Part shown: positions 3,154-31,695 of the stretch, piece by piece | Numbering within the stretch: the stretch's first letter is position 1 | How the letters are laid out: each line of letters begins with the position of its first letter | Source: Planctomycetota bacterium | GTDB taxonomy: Bacteria > Planctomycetota > Phycisphaerae > UBA1845 > UTPLA1 | NCBI GenBank assembly: GCA_003576905.1 | Contig: QEVG01000029.1 | Coordinates: 1-63,631, forward strand | DNA length: 63,631 nt | Direction: 5' to 3' | The notes under the pieces: generated by a model | What the model was told of the DNA's origin: nothing | What the model saw: the letters and a program-made list of their open reading frames with translations, nothing else | Database searches by the model: none | Translations under genes and position numbers: made by a program

Positions 3154-5637
3154 ATGATGCAATACCAGACAGCACTAGCCCTTGGCGTCCTGATCCCGCT
3201 GATCAGCTTCACCTTTCTCGCCTTTACCGGGCACAAGCTCGGCAAGCCGCGGGCGTCGTACGTCGCCCTGCTGGCCATCGGCCTGAGCTGCCTGCTGTCC
3301 ACCTATGTGCTCGTCGGCTGGATGGGGGACACCCCGGACGAAAGGGCGGCGCTAGCGGCAGACGCTTACCGCTTCGACTGGGGCCGGGTGGGCGATATCC
3401 CGGTCACGGTCGGCGTCAAGCTCGACTCGCTCACGGTGATCATGTATTTCATGGTCACCTTCATCGCCTTTTGGATCCACTTTTTCAGCATCGGCTACAT
3501 GGAAGGCCACAGCGACGAGGTCGATGGCGTCAGCAAGTATCACCGGTTCTTCACCTACCTGTCGCTGTTCTGCTTTTCCATGCTGGGGCTCGTCATTTCC
3601 AGCAGCCTGCTGTTCCTGTTCATCTTCTGGGAACTGGTGGGCCTCTGCTCATACCTGCTCATCGGCTTCTACTTCGACAGGAAATACGCCTCCGACGCGG
3701 CCATGAAGGCCTTCATCACCAACCGCGTCGGCGACTTCGGCTTCATCCTCGGGCTGGCACTCGTCGTGCTGCATTTGAACACGTTTGATCTCGACGAGGC
3801 CGCCGCGAACTTCGCCACGCAGTTCAATACCGGCACCGGCATATTCGCCTCGCCGATCTCGCTCTTCGGCTACTCGCTGGCGACGCTCATGGGCATCGGC
3901 CTCTTCTGCGGGGCCATGGGCAAGAGCGCCCAGTTCCCGCTGCACGTGTGGTTGCCGGACGCCATGGCGGGTCCGACGCCCGTGTCCGCGCTCATCCACG
4001 CCGCCACCATGGTCGCCGCCGGCGTGTACCTCGTCGCCCGGGTCTTCCGCCTGTTGACGCCGGAGGCGCAGTACTTCATCGCGGTGATCGGCTGCATCAC
4101 GCTGACCATTACGGCGCTGATCGCCATCGTCCAGACGGATATCAAGAAGGTGTTGGCCTATTCCACGCTGAGTCAGCTTGGCTACATGATCTTCGGAATG
4201 GGCATGGGGGCATGGGTGGCCGCCCTGTTCCACCTGATGACCCACGCCTTCTTCAAGGCCATGCTCTTCCTCGGCAGCGGGCAGGTCATCGAGGGCTGCC
4301 ACCACGAGCAGGACATCCGCAAGATGGGCGGATTGCGAAAGAAGATGCCGGTGACGTGCTGGACGTTTTTCATCGGCGTGCTGGCGATCGCGGGCTTCGG
4401 AATTCCCGGGGCGCATTTTGGCCTGGGCGGGTACTTTAGCAAGGACGAGATTCTCGCGGTCGCGTACGACCGGGCGTTCAACATCCCGGACCTCAAGCAA
4501 ACGGATGCGGCGGCGGATGATGCGGGGGAACATGCAAGAGCGAATGGCCAATTGCAAACAGCGAATAGCGAAGTGAAGACAGATCCTGCTATCCGCTTGG
4601 CCTCGACTTCGGAGGCATCCGTTTCGCCGTTCGCTATTAGCAATTCGCTCTTGGCCAGCGGTCCCGAGCAGGGCGGTGAGGACGCTCATCATGCGGATCA
4701 TGCCACCGGCACCCCGGAAAAGTTGAAGATCGCCGCCACGCTGCCGGTGGTGCCGAAGTGGATGTTCTGGCTGCCGATCATCATTGCGTATGTCACGCCC
4801 TTTTACATGATGCGGTGCTGGTGGCTGACATTCTGCGGCCGGCCGCGCGACCATCATGTGTATGACCATGCGCATGAGAACTGGAAGATGTACCTTCCGC
4901 TGGTGATTCTGGCAGGGGGTACAGTGTTCTGCAGTTTCTGGATGTTCCGCGACATGATTCATGACGCGGCGGCCGCTGCCACGAACTCCCCGGCCGTCGT
5001 GGCAATTGACGGCGAGGCGCACTCGATCGCCGAGGCCGGGAACGGCGCGATGCTGATGCTCGATCATGCCGTGGGCCGCAGCGCCCACGACTGGCTCAAG
5101 CTCGGCGTCGGCTGGTCGTGGCTGATCGGCATGGGTATCGCGGTGATGATCTACCGCGGCGGCCTGGCCCTGGGCGACCGCTTCAAGCGCATGTTCGGGC
5201 CTGTCCACACCGCCCTCGACAACAAGCTCTATTTCGACCATGTGTACGACAGTGTGCTGGTCGCCGGCACGACGACGTTCGGATTCGTGTGCGGCACCTT
5301 TGACAAGTACATCATCGACGGGGCCGTCAACCTCGTCGCGAAGCTCACTGCGTGGTTCGGCAAGTTCACCGGCCGCCAGCTCGACATGCCGGTGGAGCGA
5401 GGAGACTGGGGCATCGTCGATGCCGTGGCCAACGGCCTTTCGGCGACCATGCTCGACATCGGCTCACAGATTCGCCGGCCGCAGAGCGGGCGGATTCGGA
5501 ATTACGTGTGCTTCACGGCCGGCGTGGCGGCGGTCGCCTTGCTGGTTGTACTGTATTTCGATCAGATCGCGTCGGGTTCCTTCACGTTCTACCAGTGGAT
5601 CGTGCAGAAGACCCAGGCGCTGGCACAGGGGAGTTAA
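3154..5637 (+). CDS. nuoL: NADH-quinone oxidoreductase subunit L
   Basis: Membrane subunit of respiratory complex I and one of three antiporter-like proton channels. At 827 residues it is longer than usual for NuoL (about 600-700). The typical core is visible: ELVGLCSYLLIGFYFD, the ITNRVGDFGF segment, HVWLPDAMAGPTPVSALIHA and KKVLAYSTLSQLGYM, followed by the long C-terminal helix region. The extra length includes about 40 residues around 461-500 encoded by an imperfect palindromic DNA repeat, in a loop next to a His-rich stretch (AHHADH). ATG at 3154 follows an in-frame stop at 3142 and is followed by a second ATG. No strong ribosome-binding site is visible. nuoM and nuoN follow on the same strand; nuoA-K are not in the window. 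Confidence 0.95.
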   Translation: MMQYQTALALGVLIPLISFTFLAFTGHKLGKPRASYVALLAIGLSCLLSTYVLVGWMGDTPDERAALAADAYRFDWGRVGDIPVTVGVKLDSLTVIMYFMVTFIAFWIHFFSIGYMEGHSDEVDGVSKYHRFFTYLSLFCFSMLGLVISSSLLFLFIFWELVGLCSYLLIGFYFDRKYASDAAMKAFITNRVGDFGFILGLALVVLHLNTFDLDEAAANFATQFNTGTGIFASPISLFGYSLATLMGIGLFCGAMGKSAQFPLHVWLPDAMAGPTPVSALIHAATMVAAGVYLVARVFRLLTPEAQYFIAVIGCITLTITALIAIVQTDIKKVLAYSTLSQLGYMIFGMGMGAWVAALFHLMTHAFFKAMLFLGSGQVIEGCHHEQDIRKMGGLRKKMPVTCWTFFIGVLAIAGFGIPGAHFGLGGYFSKDEILAVAYDRAFNIPDLKQTDAAADDAGEHARANGQLQTANSEVKTDPAIRLASTSEASVSPFAISNSLLASGPEQGGEDAHHADHATGTPEKLKIAATLPVVPKWMFWLPIIIAYVTPFYMMRCWWLTFCGRPRDHHVYDHAHENWKMYLPLVILAGGTVFCSFWMFRDMIHDAAAAATNSPAVVAIDGEAHSIAEAGNGAMLMLDHAVGRSAHDWLKLGVGWSWLIGMGIAVMIYRGGLALGDRFKRMFGPVHTALDNKLYFDHVYDSVLVAGTTTFGFVCGTFDKYIIDGAVNLVAKLTAWFGKFTGRQLDMPVERGDWGIVDAVANGLSATMLDIGSQIRRPQSGRIRNYVCFTAGVAAVALLVVLYFDQIASGSFTFYQWIVQKTQALAQGS
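4535..4653. repeat. Palindromic element inserted in frame within nuoL (copy A)
   Basis: Imperfect nested inverted repeat of about 119 bases. The outer arms CAAGAGCGAAT (4535-4545) and ATTCGCTCTTG (4643-4653) are perfect complements, as are the inner arms AATAGCGAA (4564-4572) and TTCGCTATT (4630-4638). The centre holds a GCCTC/GAGGC hairpin. It is more AT-rich than the flanking gene and is translated as low-complexity residues rich in Ala, Asn, Ser and Thr. It shares GCAAACAGC (4554-4562) and, 11 bases after the start of that word, ATAGCGAA with the copy downstream of nuoL, in the same order and spacing. It resembles protein-coding palindromic repeats such as those of Rickettsia in style, not in sequence. 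Confidence 0.7.
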
Positions 5638-5638
5638 T

Positions 5639-5728
5639 TGAGAATCGCAAACAGCAGATAGCGAATGATGAAACCGTGATCTTTGCTTTTCACTATTCGC
5701 TGTCGGTTATTCGCTTTTCGCTCTGGAG
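5639..5728. repeat. Palindromic element in the nuoL-nuoM spacer (copy B)
   Basis: Second member of the family found inside nuoL. GCAAACAGC (5647-5655) and ATAGCGAA (5658-5665) occur with the same 11-base offset as in copy A. The right half carries repeated ATTCGCT/TTCGCTCT words complementary to the left half. It fills nearly the whole nuoL-nuoM spacer and runs into the GGAG ribosome-binding site of nuoM (5725-5728), so its insertion or retention probably shaped nuoM translation initiation. Confidence 0.6.
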
Positions 5729-5734
5729 TTTGCC

Positions 5735-7324
5735 GTGGATCTCACCTCATTGTTGAACTGGATCATCTTCCTCCCGCTCATCGGGGCCGTGGTGGTGCTC
5801 TTTGCCCCGGCGCAGATGGCGAGGTCGATCACCTGGCTCTTCACCTTCGGCGTCTTTCTCCTCTCGTGTGCCCTGTTCGGCCCGTTCTGGGACGGCAGCG
5901 CGTTCAAGGGCGAATACGGCGTCATGCAGTATGAGACGATCGTGAAGTGGATCGACGTCGGCGGCTTCCACATCAATTACCACGTGGGTCTCGACGGTAT
6001 CTCGTTCCCGCTCATCATCCTCACCACGCTCATCACCTGGCTGTCGGCCTGGGCAAGCTGGAACTTCGACCACTGGAATGTGAACCGCGGGCCGAAGGGT
6101 TTCTTCGCCCTGTTCCTTCTGCTTGAGACCGGCGTCCTCGGCACCTTCGCCGCGCTGGACTTCTTCCTGTTCTACATATTCTGGGAAGTGATGCTGCTGC
6201 CGATGTACTTCCTCATCGGGGTCTGGGGCGGCCCGCGGAAGGAATACGCCGCCATCAAGTTCTTCATCTACACGCTCGCCGGCTCGGTCCTGATGCTCGT
6301 GGCCCTGCTGGCCATGTATTACACCAGCGGCGACGCGGTCGGCGGCGACGGCACCTTCAACCTGATCGACTACGCCACCAAGCCCGCCATCATCCAGATG
6401 TTCAATGACGAGGCGACGCGCTTCCTCGGCTGGAACTTCGGCCAGGCGATGTTCGTCATGCTGTTCATCGCCTTCATGATCAAGGTGCCGGTGTTCCCGT
6501 TCCACACGTGGCTCCCCGACGCCCACGTCGAGGCGCCCACGCCGATCTCCATGATTCTGGCGGGCATTCTGCTGAAACTCGGGGCATACGGTTTCTTCCG
6601 CGTGTGCTACCCGATTTTTCCCGAAGCGGCCCAGTCGCTGGCCTACGGCGTCGCCCTCCTCGGCGTGATCAACATCATCTACGGCGCCTTCTGCTGCCTG
6701 GCGCAGACCGACTTCAAGCGGCTCGTCGCCTACAGCTCCATCAGCCACATGGGCTATGTCGTGCTCGGCATCGCCATCATGACCAGCACCGGTTTTCAGG
6801 GCGCGATGTTCCAGGTATTGGCCCACGGCATCTCCAGCCCGATGTGCTTCTTCCTGGTCGGCGTGATTTATGATCGGGCACACCACCGCGACCTCAACCG
6901 ATTCGGCGGATTGTGGCTGGCCATGCCGCGGTACGGCTCGCTGGCCACGCTCGGCTTCTTCGCCTCGCTCGGCCTGCCGTCGCTGTGCGGATTCATCGGC
7001 GAAATATGGGTGCTGCTCGGCACCTTCAACGCCCCATTCCCGTGGGCCAAGCCGATGGCGGTGGTCGCCGCGTTCGGCGTCGTGCTTACCGCCGCGTACA
7101 TCCTCTGGATGATCCAGCGGGTTTACCTCGGCAAGAAGAAGGAAGAGTACGCCGAGTTTCCCGATGCCGATGCCCGCGAGACGGCAATCCTGATTCCCAT
7201 GGCCGCCCTGGCCATCTTCATGGGCATCTTGCCGAGTTATACGTTTCGGCTCATGAACGGCACCATCGATCGGATGTTGAACGACGTGATCGGTCCGGCC
7301 ATGGCCGTGGCCTTCGGAGGTTGA
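5735..7324 (+). CDS. nuoM: NADH-quinone oxidoreductase subunit M
   Basis: 529 residues, normal for NuoM. Proton-channel membrane subunit of complex I. Signature segments are FYIFWEVMLLPMYFLIG, FIKVPVFPFHTWLPDAHVEAPTPIS (key Lys and His; only part quoted matters), LAQTDFKRLVAYSSISHMG and SLCGFIGE near the C-terminus. The start is GTG at 5735 with GGAG six bases upstream, lying at the edge of the palindromic element. Seven bases separate its stop from nuoN, so the two are surely co-transcribed. Confidence 0.95.
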   Translation: MDLTSLLNWIIFLPLIGAVVVLFAPAQMARSITWLFTFGVFLLSCALFGPFWDGSAFKGEYGVMQYETIVKWIDVGGFHINYHVGLDGISFPLIILTTLITWLSAWASWNFDHWNVNRGPKGFFALFLLLETGVLGTFAALDFFLFYIFWEVMLLPMYFLIGVWGGPRKEYAAIKFFIYTLAGSVLMLVALLAMYYTSGDAVGGDGTFNLIDYATKPAIIQMFNDEATRFLGWNFGQAMFVMLFIAFMIKVPVFPFHTWLPDAHVEAPTPISMILAGILLKLGAYGFFRVCYPIFPEAAQSLAYGVALLGVINIIYGAFCCLAQTDFKRLVAYSSISHMGYVVLGIAIMTSTGFQGAMFQVLAHGISSPMCFFLVGVIYDRAHHRDLNRFGGLWLAMPRYGSLATLGFFASLGLPSLCGFIGEIWVLLGTFNAPFPWAKPMAVVAAFGVVLTAAYILWMIQRVYLGKKKEEYAEFPDADARETAILIPMAALAIFMGILPSYTFRLMNGTIDRMLNDVIGPAMAVAFGG

Positions 7325-7331
7325 GCCGGAC

Positions 7332-8942
7332 ATGCCACTCGGTCTGTTTGCCACTATCTGGATGCCCGGCGGCGAGGATCTCGCCCGGCTCGCTCCCGTT
7401 TGGAGTCTCGTGGGGACGATCGTCGGCGTGCTCCTTGCGGCGCTGATCGTCGGGCGCAACTGGCGCGTGGCCGGCGGCGTAACGATGATCGGCGCGCTGG
7501 TCACGGCGTGGCTCGCATTTCGCGGCTTCACGGCCACGGAGGGCCACTGGGCGGGCATGTCGCCGGCCGGGGCCGCGCCGATGCTCGTGGTCGATCAGTT
7601 CAGCCACTTTTTCATTTTTCTGCTCGCGATTTTTCTGGCCGCGGTGACGTGGCTCTGGTTTATGGGCCAGGACGCCGCCGTGCCCGATATCAGTGCGCAC
7701 CGCGGCGACGCGACCGAATTCTTCGTTCTGCTCGTGGGCAGCGCCTTCGGCATGGCGATGATGGTCAGCACGACGAACCTGCTCATGATCATCCTCGCGG
7801 TCGAGTCTGCGTCGCTTCCGTCCTACGGCCTGGCCGGCTTTCGAAAGAAGAACCGCCAGTCCGCCGAGGCGTCGCTCAAGTACGTCCTCTTCGGGGCGGT
7901 CACCAGCGCCATCATGATTTACGGCGCGTCCCTGCTCTATGGCCGCTATCACACGCTTGACCTCGCAATGATCGGGCGGCAGATTCAGATCGAGGGTCCC
8001 ACGGTCCTGATGGGCGTCGCCATGTTCGCCTTCATGGTCGGCGTGGCCTTCAAGGTCTCGGCCGTGCCGTTCCACTTCTGGTGTCCCGATGTGTTTGAGG
8101 GCGCATCGATCGAAGTGACAACCTGGCTGAGCGTGGTGAGCAAGGCGGCGGGCCTGGGACTGATGCTCCGGATCATCGCCGTGGTGACATCGGAACTGAC
8201 ATCCACCGACGCGCTCCAGTATGTGACGATGGCCATCGCCATCATGGCCGCCCTGACCTGCACGTGGGGCAATTTCTCCGCGTTTCGCCAGACGAACATG
8301 AAGCGCCTGCTGGCGTTCAGCTCGATCGCCCATGCGGGGTACATGCTCATGGCCGTGGCCATCATTTGGAAACCGGCGGAAGGCGCGCTCAGCCCCGCGC
8401 ACCCGGCCTTCAGCGCAATTGTCGCCTACATCACGGTATACCTGTTGATGAATCTCGGGGCGTTCGCCTGCATCGCCTTCGTCTACTGGTCGACCGGCAG
8501 CGAGTCGATCGACGCCTTCAACGGAATGGCGCGTCGCAACCCGCTTCTTATGGTGGCGATGGTGGTCTTCCTGTTCTCACTGGTCGGCCTGCCGCCGATG
8601 GGCGGGTTTCTCGCCAAGTGGTGGCTCCTGGCCGCGTTGTGGGACGCCAAGCTCATCTGGCTCATCTTCGTTGCCGTCTTTAACACGGTGATCAGCCTTT
8701 ATTACTACGCGCGGATCGCCGTGGCGATGGTCTTTCGCGACGACGACCAGGCCCCGCTTCGCGCGCCCCTGGCCGGGCAGGCGATCGTGCTGGCCTGTGC
8801 CGTGGGGATTCTCCTCACCGGTACCCTTTGGGCCGGTCGCCTGAAGGACTTCTCCGACGCGCGCAGCCGCGATCTGTACGCGGTGACGCAAAAGTCCCCG
8901 GCCGGCTCGGTGGCCGCCGCGGAATCCGGCACGGCCGATTGA
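7332..8942 (+). CDS. nuoN: NADH-quinone oxidoreductase subunit N
   Basis: 536 residues, third antiporter-like subunit of complex I. The family pattern is clear: LLMIILAVESASLPSYGLAG, KYVLFGAVTSAIMIYG, FKVSAVPFHFWCPDVFEGA, NMKRLLAFSSIAHAGYMLM and VGLPPMGGFLAKW. ATG at 7332. It ends the nuoLMN block and a weak hairpin follows. The separate nuoLMN arrangement suggests that the remaining complex I subunits are encoded elsewhere in the genome. Confidence 0.95.
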   Translation: MPLGLFATIWMPGGEDLARLAPVWSLVGTIVGVLLAALIVGRNWRVAGGVTMIGALVTAWLAFRGFTATEGHWAGMSPAGAAPMLVVDQFSHFFIFLLAIFLAAVTWLWFMGQDAAVPDISAHRGDATEFFVLLVGSAFGMAMMVSTTNLLMIILAVESASLPSYGLAGFRKKNRQSAEASLKYVLFGAVTSAIMIYGASLLYGRYHTLDLAMIGRQIQIEGPTVLMGVAMFAFMVGVAFKVSAVPFHFWCPDVFEGASIEVTTWLSVVSKAAGLGLMLRIIAVVTSELTSTDALQYVTMAIAIMAALTCTWGNFSAFRQTNMKRLLAFSSIAHAGYMLMAVAIIWKPAEGALSPAHPAFSAIVAYITVYLLMNLGAFACIAFVYWSTGSESIDAFNGMARRNPLLMVAMVVFLFSLVGLPPMGGFLAKWWLLAALWDAKLIWLIFVAVFNTVISLYYYARIAVAMVFRDDDQAPLRAPLAGQAIVLACAVGILLTGTLWAGRLKDFSDARSRDLYAVTQKSPAGSVAAAESGTAD

Positions 8943-30954: not shown

Positions 30955-31695
30955 ATGACGATTGCCCGAGACGGCTGGCGCGAAATCCTGATATCGACCG
31001 TGATCTGCCATTCCCTCGCGGGGGCGTGCCTGTGGGCGGCGCGGCAGGTATCACCTCTCTTCTGGATCCCGGCCGTCGCGTTGTGGGGCGTGTGGCTTTT
31101 TACAGTGGCCTTCTTCCGCGACCCGTACCGCGAAATCCCCTCGGAACCCGGCATTCTCGTTTCGCCCGCCGACGGCAAGGTCACGGAGGTCAGCCGCCTC
31201 GATCGCTACGAAGGCATTGACGGCCCGGCGCTGCGTATCAGCATCTTTCTTTCCGTTTTCAACGTGCATGTGAACCGGGTGCCATGCGCCGGACGCGTGC
31301 GACGGATTGCTTATCAGCCGGGTGAGTTTCTCGATGCCCGGCATCCGGAGTGCGGAATCCGGAACGAGGCGAACACAATCGTTATTGACCCCGCTCAGGA
31401 GATGTCCGGCCCGGTGATCGTTCGGCAGGTGGCAGGTCTGATCGCTCGGCGGATAGTGTGCAATCTGCGCGAAGGCGACCCTGTCGAGCGTGGACAGCGG
31501 CTGGGGCTGATCAAGTTCGGTTCGAGGACCGACCTTATCGTCCCCGCGGCCTCGGGTCTCGAGCCGGCGGTCCGGGTAAACGATGTAGTGAGCGGGGGCG
31601 ACACGGTTCTTCTGCGGCCCGCGCGGTCCCGAGCCGGTCAGGGCGGCCCGCGCGGCGCGGGCATGGAGCGGCGCGAGGCGGCGGCCCGGCATTGA
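30955..31695 (+). CDS. psd: Phosphatidylserine decarboxylase (short form)
   Basis: 246 residues from ATG 30955. Two membrane helices near 12-55, then the pyruvoyl enzyme core: PADGKV (D73), FNVHVNRVP (H105) and the self-cleavage site KFGSRTDL, in which S190 becomes the pyruvoyl group. It makes phosphatidylethanolamine from phosphatidylserine at the cytoplasmic membrane. Its stop codon overlaps an upstream ATG of pssA (TGATG), so the two enzymes of one pathway are translationally coupled. TATGAT at 30912-30917 is a possible -10 box. Confidence 0.94.
   Translation: MTIARDGWREILISTVICHSLAGACLWAARQVSPLFWIPAVALWGVWLFTVAFFRDPYREIPSEPGILVSPADGKVTEVSRLDRYEGIDGPALRISIFLSVFNVHVNRVPCAGRVRRIAYQPGEFLDARHPECGIRNEANTIVIDPAQEMSGPVIVRQVAGLIARRIVCNLREGDPVERGQRLGLIKFGSRTDLIVPAASGLEPAVRVNDVVSGGDTVLLRPARSRAGQGGPRGAGMERREAAARH

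Follow-up and report, generated by a model that had tools for sequence, protein, structure and literature searches.

The stretch of DNA analyzed here, hereafter the window, comprises 63,631 bases of contig C43 in a planctomycete genome of 4.7 Mb, and includes the genes nuoL and nuoM. The subject of this report is a pair of short hairpins, designated E1 and E2, and their relation to elements that bear a gene of the S23 family (PF05635). E1 lies in frame inside nuoL, the 827-amino-acid reading frame of which stays open across it, and E2 fills the spacer between nuoL and nuoM, abutting the ribosome-binding site of nuoM. The features of the region are as follows.

3154 to 5637, plus strand: nuoL, 827 amino acids, host gene of E1; matches TIGR01974 and NF005141 above curated cut-offs
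4468 to 4756, plus strand: extra loop of NuoL, about residues 439-535, against 4 residues in the solved structure 8qby; residues 450-515 predicted to be disordered
4536 to 4573, plus strand: E1 left arm, AAGAGCG AATGGCC AATTGCA AACAGCG AATAGCG AAG; heptad array, z 6.8
4574 to 4615, no strand assigned: E1 interior, without an S23 gene (nuo loci L011-L082 searched)
4616 to 4657, plus strand: E1 right arm, CATCCGT TTCGCCG TTCGCTA TTAGCAA TTCGCTC TTGGCCA; z 7.0; inverted partner of the left arm
5632 to 5673, plus strand: E2 left arm, lying over the nuoL stop codon, AGTTAAT TGAGAAT CGCAAAC AGCAGAT AGCGAAT GATGAAA; heptad array, z 5.8
5677 to 5725, plus strand: E2 right arm, TGATCTT TGCTTTT CACTATT CGCTGTC GGTTATT CGCTTTT CGCTCTG; z 5.9; inverted partner of the left arm
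5725 to 5737, plus strand: GGAG ribosome-binding site (5725-5728) and GTG start (5735-5737) of nuoM, as read in the sequence; abuts E2
5735 to 7324, plus strand: nuoM, 529 amino acids; matches TIGR01972 above cut-off
7332 to 8942: putative nuoN, an open reading frame named by its position and by a match at the place of nuoN in locus L245

Inverted heptad arrays in nuoL and before nuoM

An initial annotation of this DNA had described two AT-richer palindromes that share two motifs in the same order with an identical 11-base offset, and both statements were borne out. The arms of E1 (4535-4565 and 4623-4653) are 84% complementary and those of E2 (5642-5673 and 5688-5719) 72%; the elements are about 85-125 bp long, and their GC fractions are 0.53 and 0.44, respectively, against 0.62 for nuoL and nuoM. 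Within the window, the motif GCAAACAGC is confined to positions 4554 and 5647, and each time ATAGCGAA follows 11 bases on. When a 16-base motif of E1 was searched with up to 3 mismatches, all 8 matches in the window fell in E1 and E2, against a mean of 0.69 in shuffled sequence. Beyond what had been described, the arms of both elements were found to be inverted arrays of degenerate heptamers, of the AGCGAAT type on the left and the ATTCGCT type on the right. Self-identity at lag 7 was 0.42 for E1 and 0.49 for E2, and at lag 14 it was 0.41 and 0.39; the remaining lags between 2 and 15 gave 0.19-0.30. As had been claimed, one kind of repeat occupies a coding loop of NuoL as well as a spacer beside the nuoM ribosome-binding site. 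Since the arrays are degenerate, a strict-score scan missed the heptads of the window, and a less strict scan mixed in GC-rich false positives; a composition z-score was therefore added. A fifth period-7 match in the window lies at 31329-31364 (CTCGATGCCCGGCATCCGGAGTGCGGAATCCGGAA, z 5.6).

Over 23 bases, E1 and E2 are identical at 19 positions in the printed register and at 20 when shifted by one base. In a simulation of two independent noisy AGCGAAT arrays, for which the retention rate was assumed, at least 20 of the 23 bases agreed in 13% of the runs. A common heptamer unit can thus largely explain the similarity in both motif and spacing, so that neither element need have been copied from the other, and the spread of an exact copy between E1 and E2 was rejected on this ground. 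A search of the window against Rfam returned nothing at gathering scores.

Arrays in the NuoL loops and nuoL-nuoM spacers of relatives

The best-matching solved NuoL is 8qby, which we take to be that of Paracoccus, and its residues 421 to 426 correspond to residues 438 to 536 of the window NuoL. In the AlphaFold model (33 aligned sequences), the predicted local distance difference test (pLDDT) score is below 50 at residues 450-515. The NuoL relatives recovered came from Phycisphaerae and other planctomycete metagenome-assembled genomes (MAGs), besides one record labelled Alphaproteobacteria (L059, JANQQE010000011.1); the NuoL of this record lies inside the planctomycete tree, and it is perhaps a mislabelled or chimeric MAG. 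The alignment consisted of 58 rows, i.e., the window and 57 relatives, in which repeated genomes were merged and L082 was left out as a fragment. The loop proved to be old and hypervariable: 56 of the 57 relatives have a loop at this place, made up mostly of unrelated DNA, with about 15 residues in L080 and a loop cut by the contig end in L076. This result weighs in part against the idea, put forward in the initial annotation, of a spreading repeat tolerated inside the protein; what stands of it is that heptad arrays were found in 9 of the 58 loops, window included, in a scattered distribution and with different units. These units comprise a pure (AGAGGCA)n in L076, the AATCC type in L072 and L073, CTCAGTC in L079, and GAATAGC and CTCAAGC in L016 and L017.

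The periodicity of the loop arrays was specific, since the control periods 5, 10, 11 and 13 gave no array and period 8 gave one (L070), while the remainder of nuoL (126 kb) had two matches each at periods 7 and 5. The pooled lag statistics of the relatives' loops had no clear excess at lag 7 (0.272, compared with 0.269 at lag 8 and about 0.29-0.32 at the triplet lags); the signal being confined to 9 of the 58 loops, the heptad phenomenon is patchy. On the NuoL tree, the nine heptad rows require 7 changes, whether gains or losses; by the starred branches, the minimum is 6. We therefore read the loop as a permissive site at which such arrays were acquired or re-acquired more than once. The loops of L057 and L058 hold further short palindromes, e.g., CCGGCGATTCATCGCCGG and GCGGGCTGAAGCCCGC; small palindromes of several kinds thus seem to be tolerated at the site.

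The same specificity was seen over the 57 nuo loci as a whole (423 kb), in which 40 period-7 arrays were scored, as opposed to 2, 1, 0, 0 and 0 at periods 5, 8, 10, 11 and 13, and none at period 7 after shuffling; the 50, 17 and 4 arrays at periods 6, 9 and 12 are in line with codon periodicity. These numbers bear on one rival explanation, namely that a hypervariable loop and a spacer resemble each other by chance. It draws on the hypervariability of the loop across the NuoL rows and on the pooled loops just mentioned, but it is scarcely credible in the face of the exclusive location of the 16-base motif in E1 and E2, the peaks at lags 7 and 14, and the specificity for period 7 in both the loops and the nuo loci.

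At the nuoL-nuoM junction, 55 spacers were resolved; those of the window, L033 and L073 contain arrays above threshold, and L039 has a weak one. In L012, which belongs to the same genus as the window, the 111-nucleotide spacer contains an inverted array with a GAATTG-type unit that was recognized by eye and lies below the scan threshold. Among the other close relatives, the spacers measure just 12 nucleotides in L041 and 11 in L015, and that of L045 spans 154 nucleotides without a scored array. This one site can, therefore, hold an identical architecture built from a different unit, or no array at all.

These spacers allowed a second rival explanation to be weighed, in which the hairpins are selected as RNA: E2 would tune translation of nuoM or the stability of the nuoL-nuoM mRNA, and E1 would be a by-product. 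E2 does abut the nuoM ribosome-binding site and is predicted to fold, with GCAAAC (5647-5652) paired to GTTTGC (5728-5733), and L012 has an inverted array of another sequence at the same junction. However, the fold of E2 was weak (z of just -1.05; that of E1, at -2.41, was supported), E1 is coding, and the spacers of L041, L015 and L045 do not conform. E2 as a selected regulator of nuoM was accordingly rejected as a candidate, the spacers of close relatives giving no support, and the explanation as a whole is held to be improbable.

S23 genes bracketed by repeat arms

Arrays of this kind extend well beyond the nuo operon. In 830 kb of the window's own genome, 14 arrays of period 7, against 2 in shuffled sequence, and 13 of period 8 were scored; period 8 being this frequent, the period is 7 or 8 rather than 7 alone. 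Samples of other genomes yielded 4 (G001), 1 (G003) and 6 (G015) period-7 arrays and none in 200 kb of G047, and 150 kb of E. coli K-12 had neither period-7 nor period-8 arrays. Of 68 arrays, 16 had an inverted partner within 140 bp; in the control comparisons, the figure was 7 of 701. Arrays no more than 200 bp apart had closely similar units (mean distance 1.24 in 17 pairs, 7 of them inverted and 10 of them same-orientation neighbours that include pieces of one array, so that the closeness is partly trivial). Between distant arrays of one genome, the mean distance was 2.80, compared to 3.00 for arrays of different genomes and 3.11 when the units were permuted. The units are, thus, mostly array-specific, and there is no sequence-defined family.

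At the same time, the unit of E1 and E2 is dispersed in its own genome, where AGCGAATAGCGAATAGC, with as many as 3 mismatches allowed, had 29 overlapping matches; 6 of these fall in E1 and E2, and the backwards control had 5. A second unit, TTCCCTG, had 47 overlapping matches and a control of 0; the two units are related and are mixed in one array (L004). Several other repeats were observed in this genome. Dispersed octad arrays, mostly with a CGAAACGT-type unit, occur at L083, L090, L098, L153, L157 and L158. A dispersed repeat of about 100-180 bp is found at L166-L184, with a GAGCGGGGATTCCCGGCGCGACCGTGCCACAC core in several copies; TTCGCCA-like heptads precede some copies, TTCCCTG heptads and octads follow others, and several lie near contig ends. 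The longest array in the own-genome sample is a near-pure GCCTCAA array on contig C12 (L154, 7034-7168).

The dispersal bears on the initial proposal of a spreading family in the manner of Rickettsia palindromic elements, i.e., a sequence-defined mobile palindrome, whether of that type or another miniature inverted-repeat transposable element (MITE), with the transposase acting in trans. Copies both in frame and between genes, the palindromic form, the size of the elements and the AGCGAAT-type arrays elsewhere in the genome all speak for it. Nonetheless, a BLAST search of the genome with a 136-base E1 query matched only E1 itself, and the units change between neighbours, with distant arrays of one genome hardly closer to each other than those of different genomes. 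The search for further copies thus recovered short AGCGAAT-unit arrays and no alignable element. The occurrence of one type of repeat in both contexts, with other units in other NuoL loops, survives the analysis, and the Rickettsia-like family is not supported; we regard a sequence-defined mobile palindrome as very improbable.

The TTCCCTG trail led to contig C26, where a gene for an error-prone DNA polymerase (dnaE2; NF004225, above cut-off) contains a GGGAACA array, an S23 gene and an inverted TGTTCCC array:

L180, 985-1535 (own genome, contig C26): S23 gene with inverted GGGAACA arrays inside dnaE2; host frame and S23 frame both open

The S23 protein encoded here has 134 amino acids and matches PF05635 with an E value of 5e-34, as well as the four-helix-bundle family TIGR02436; a homologue with a solved structure, 2gsc, shows the fold. 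Two S23 genes were found in the own genome, on C26 and C24, and a PF05635 search detected the family in 91 of 120 genomes, the own one included, and in none of 14 control genomes. In the first 32 S23 loci, a 7- or 8-bp array was present within about 340 bp in 30 and on both sides in 25, while random positions, which were not matched for intergenic setting, had an array nearby in 17 of 400 and on both sides in 2 of 400. It is to be noted that 30 of the S23 loci had been selected among the best-scoring matches of the 120 genomes. A second set of 20, picked partly for places in dnaE2 or nuo, had arrays on one side or more in 18 of the 19 scored and on both sides in 12 of the 19. Fourteen plasmid copies (13 cyanobacterial and 1 from Gemmatirosa) had an array in 13 and on both sides in 12. 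Altogether, arrays flank the gene on one side or more in 79 of 82 S23 loci and on both in 63 (79 and 63 of 83 when L186, the second S23 gene of the own genome, is added). These loci are not all independent, as L247-L249 are close relatives, and so are L237, L238 and L240; dropped from the set were L265 and L271, which repeat L204 and L189, and L260, which a single-query search missed. Array density at 52 planctomycete S23 loci was 3.28 per kb near S23, against 0.38 per kb at 500-1400 bp away. Of 62 arm pairs with equal period, 61 were inverted and 1 direct; a place between genes would not by itself produce such inverted pairs of one unit.

Several armed S23 genes were found in places of interest by themselves. 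In the relative G036, an S23 element with octad arms occupies the nuoM-nuoN spacer (L245). On cyanobacterial plasmids (L233, L239, L243, L232), armed S23 genes are flanked by cas6 and cas4 in two cases, by cas10 and a Cmr3-type gene in another, and by genes for ribonucleotide reductase subunits in a fourth. The S23 protein tree (66 rows, 118 columns) was poorly resolved, the dnaE2-borne S23s falling in two small clusters, and the similarity of S23 to the retroelement accessory protein Avd was weak and below curated cut-offs.

In some loci, a larger open frame on the same strand encloses the S23 gene: 9 of the first 32 loci, 12 of all 66 scored, and none of the 14 plasmid copies; among the 12, L252, L255 and L258 had been chosen because of their place in dnaE2, and the search had begun from the own copy. 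The own dnaE2 frame is open across the insert, with S23 in another frame of the same strand, and in all 12 loci the host frame is identical relative to S23. The hosts were defined by the open frame, so that 12 of 12 are open by definition, and the informative figure is that the same host-type frame is open in only 4 of the 54 other S23 loci; the other alternative sense frame was open in 0 of 66. The host genes are dnaE2 (6) and DNA methyltransferase genes, 3 of the N6_N4_Mtase kind and 3 of the Eco57I kind, dnaE2 having been identified by family searches in three cases and by alignment or eye in the others. In the aligned dnaE2 sequences of the own genome, G009, G019 and G004, the insert sits at one and the same loop with different units (GGGAACA, AGGCACAA, AGGGATCA and AGGCACGA, respectively), and no insert occupies this loop in G010, G001, G008, G007 and G005. 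L200 and L201 have the same protein motifs flanking the insert as the dnaE2 site.

This organization bears directly on the strongest rival explanation, in which the hairpins are purely local products of slippage: heptamers would expand where selection allows, fold-back synthesis would invert copies, and S23 would merely reside in such spacers or promote slippage. That the units are mostly array-specific agrees well with it, and so does the near-pure GCCTCAA array of L154; moreover, a heptanucleotide excess with a slippage explanation is credited to Mrazek et al. 2007 in the available portion of PMC4679880. On the other hand, local slippage fails to predict arms of the same unit that bracket S23 genes in inverted orientation in 61 of 62 comparable pairs, or a single dnaE2 loop that in four genomes holds S23 elements whose arms differ. 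We consider it unlikely, yet far ahead of the other rivals.

Gene-less and gene-bearing hairpins compared

The period of 7 or 8, the inverted layout and the kind of site that were observed in E1 and E2 are also features of the S23 arms. E1 and E2 resemble the S23-bearing bracket in having inverted arms of one 7- or 8-bp unit, and the 5' arm is purine-rich on the coding strand in E1 and E2, in the 13 arms listed for other gene-less pairs of arrays, and in 46 of 62 S23 elements. Since the two kinds of element are alike in period, layout, purine-rich 5' arm and type of site, a gene-less form is the simplest account of E1 and E2. On balance, we favour the conclusion that they are gene-less foldback hairpins of a class whose gene-bearing form consists of an array of 7- or 8-bp units, an S23 gene and an inverted array with that same unit.

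A number of observations weigh against this conclusion. No array was scored in the loops of the four closest NuoL rows (L012, L041, L045 and L015), and a clear inverted partner was present in only 16 of the 68 arrays. An S23 search of nuo loci L011-L082, the nuo region of the window included, gave no match. The arms of the own S23-bearing element use AGGGAAC, which is two changes away from AGCGAAT, and a distance of 0-1 between the units of nuo arrays and S23 arms was seen in 3 of 22 same-genome comparisons versus 14 of 316 between genomes, a mild excess. Purine-rich coding strands are common in bacteria, which makes the match in polarity a weak one. The S23 controls were unmatched, as stated, and L186 has no scored array. 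Lastly, no target duplication or empty site was established for E1 and E2, as the NuoL loops align poorly, and no transposase search was made; movement is, thus, something we infer. L186, together with L247-L249 of G001, forms a divergent S23 subgroup in which the arms are one-sided or missing.

As regards descent, mobility and function, we infer the following for E1 and E2. The gene-less hairpins may derive from the S23-bearing ones, or may be moved or maintained like them. Replication slippage would renew the units locally, and correction templated by the hairpin would keep the two arms alike; in combination, as we propose, the two processes would let arms match while elements differ. The elements would persist where inserts do little harm, such as operon spacers and disordered protein loops. 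In transcripts, E1 and E2 would form stem-loops, and E2 may modestly influence the initiation of nuoM. An RNA or complementary DNA (cDNA) step is conceivable, given the weak S23-Avd similarity.

Several known systems share some of these traits. The terminal inverted repeats of the eukaryotic foldback transposons FB and Tetris are made of tandem subrepeats, and differ from the present class in subrepeat length and transposases. The short tandemly repeated repetitive (STRR) sequences of cyanobacteria are heptameric tandem repeats. Further heptameric tandem repeats, TAACTGA in Beggiatoaceae and GGGNATC in Xanthomonas and Nostoc, are described in the accessible parts of PMC4679880 (MacGregor 2015) and PMC4692102 (Rehm 2015) as lying in spacers and occasionally in open reading frames. 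All of these heptameric repeats share the 7-bp period with E1 and E2; however, they are direct arrays of a fixed unit, whereas E1 and E2 are inverted arrays of a degenerate AGCGAAT. The P6b stem of the Nostoc trnL intron is likewise a heptad stem-loop, built of seven-base units (Class I TDNGATT and Class II NNTGAGT) whose class was repeatedly replaced, but in the part of PMC4476775 (Kaasalainen 2015) available it is a single non-coding locus in a group I intron, and is not described as dispersed. Rickettsia palindromic elements are a 105-146 bp family and lie in spacers and in frame in protein genes, according to the accessible text of PMC2229807; E1 is like them in its in-frame position and unlike them in having no alignable dispersed copies in its own genome.

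The closest parallel is provided by the intervening sequence (IVS) of 23S rRNA, which, in the accessible portion of PMC4990558 (Warrier 2016), is a short insert with complementary ends and a four-helix-bundle open reading frame inside, tolerated within its host gene; the same portion states that its stem-loops are cut by RNase III and that the S23/IVS proteins (PF05635, TIGR02436) have no known function. E1 and E2 share with it the complementary, stem-forming ends, and differ in that they have no S23 reading frame and reside in the nuoL loop and the nuoL-nuoM spacer rather than in 23S rRNA. The S23 elements found here, for their part, differ from the 23S IVS in arms of 7-8-bp arrays with element-specific units, and in protein genes and operon spacers as hosts. 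Among the open-access papers searched, including the accessible parts of PMC4679880, PMC4692102, PMC4476775, PMC4060949, PMC2229807 and PMC4990558, none was found to describe S23 elements with heptad or octad arms, or S23 in frame in dnaE2; the search did not look for in-frame copies by name.

A broader proposition can be offered tentatively, and we hold it to be a possibility short of probable: the S23 family, an orphan family of the 23S rRNA intervening sequences, would be the gene of a widespread foldback-type element, the 7- or 8-bp-array arms of which are given a new unit at each site, and which enters genes of DNA enzymes (dnaE2, methyltransferases) in frame, with its own gene in another frame, and from which hairpins without the gene, E1 and E2 among them, are shed into essential proteins. 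The copies in dnaE2 and methyltransferase genes, in which two frames are open over the same DNA, would constitute a striking insert that preserves the readability of its host. The proposition ties together heptanucleotide repeats of unknown origin, palindromes that are tolerated in proteins, and the S23/IVS proteins. If true, it would reveal what the S23 gene travels with, offer a testable reason for the 7-bp excess in bacterial genomes, and account for low-complexity inserts in proteins such as NuoL.

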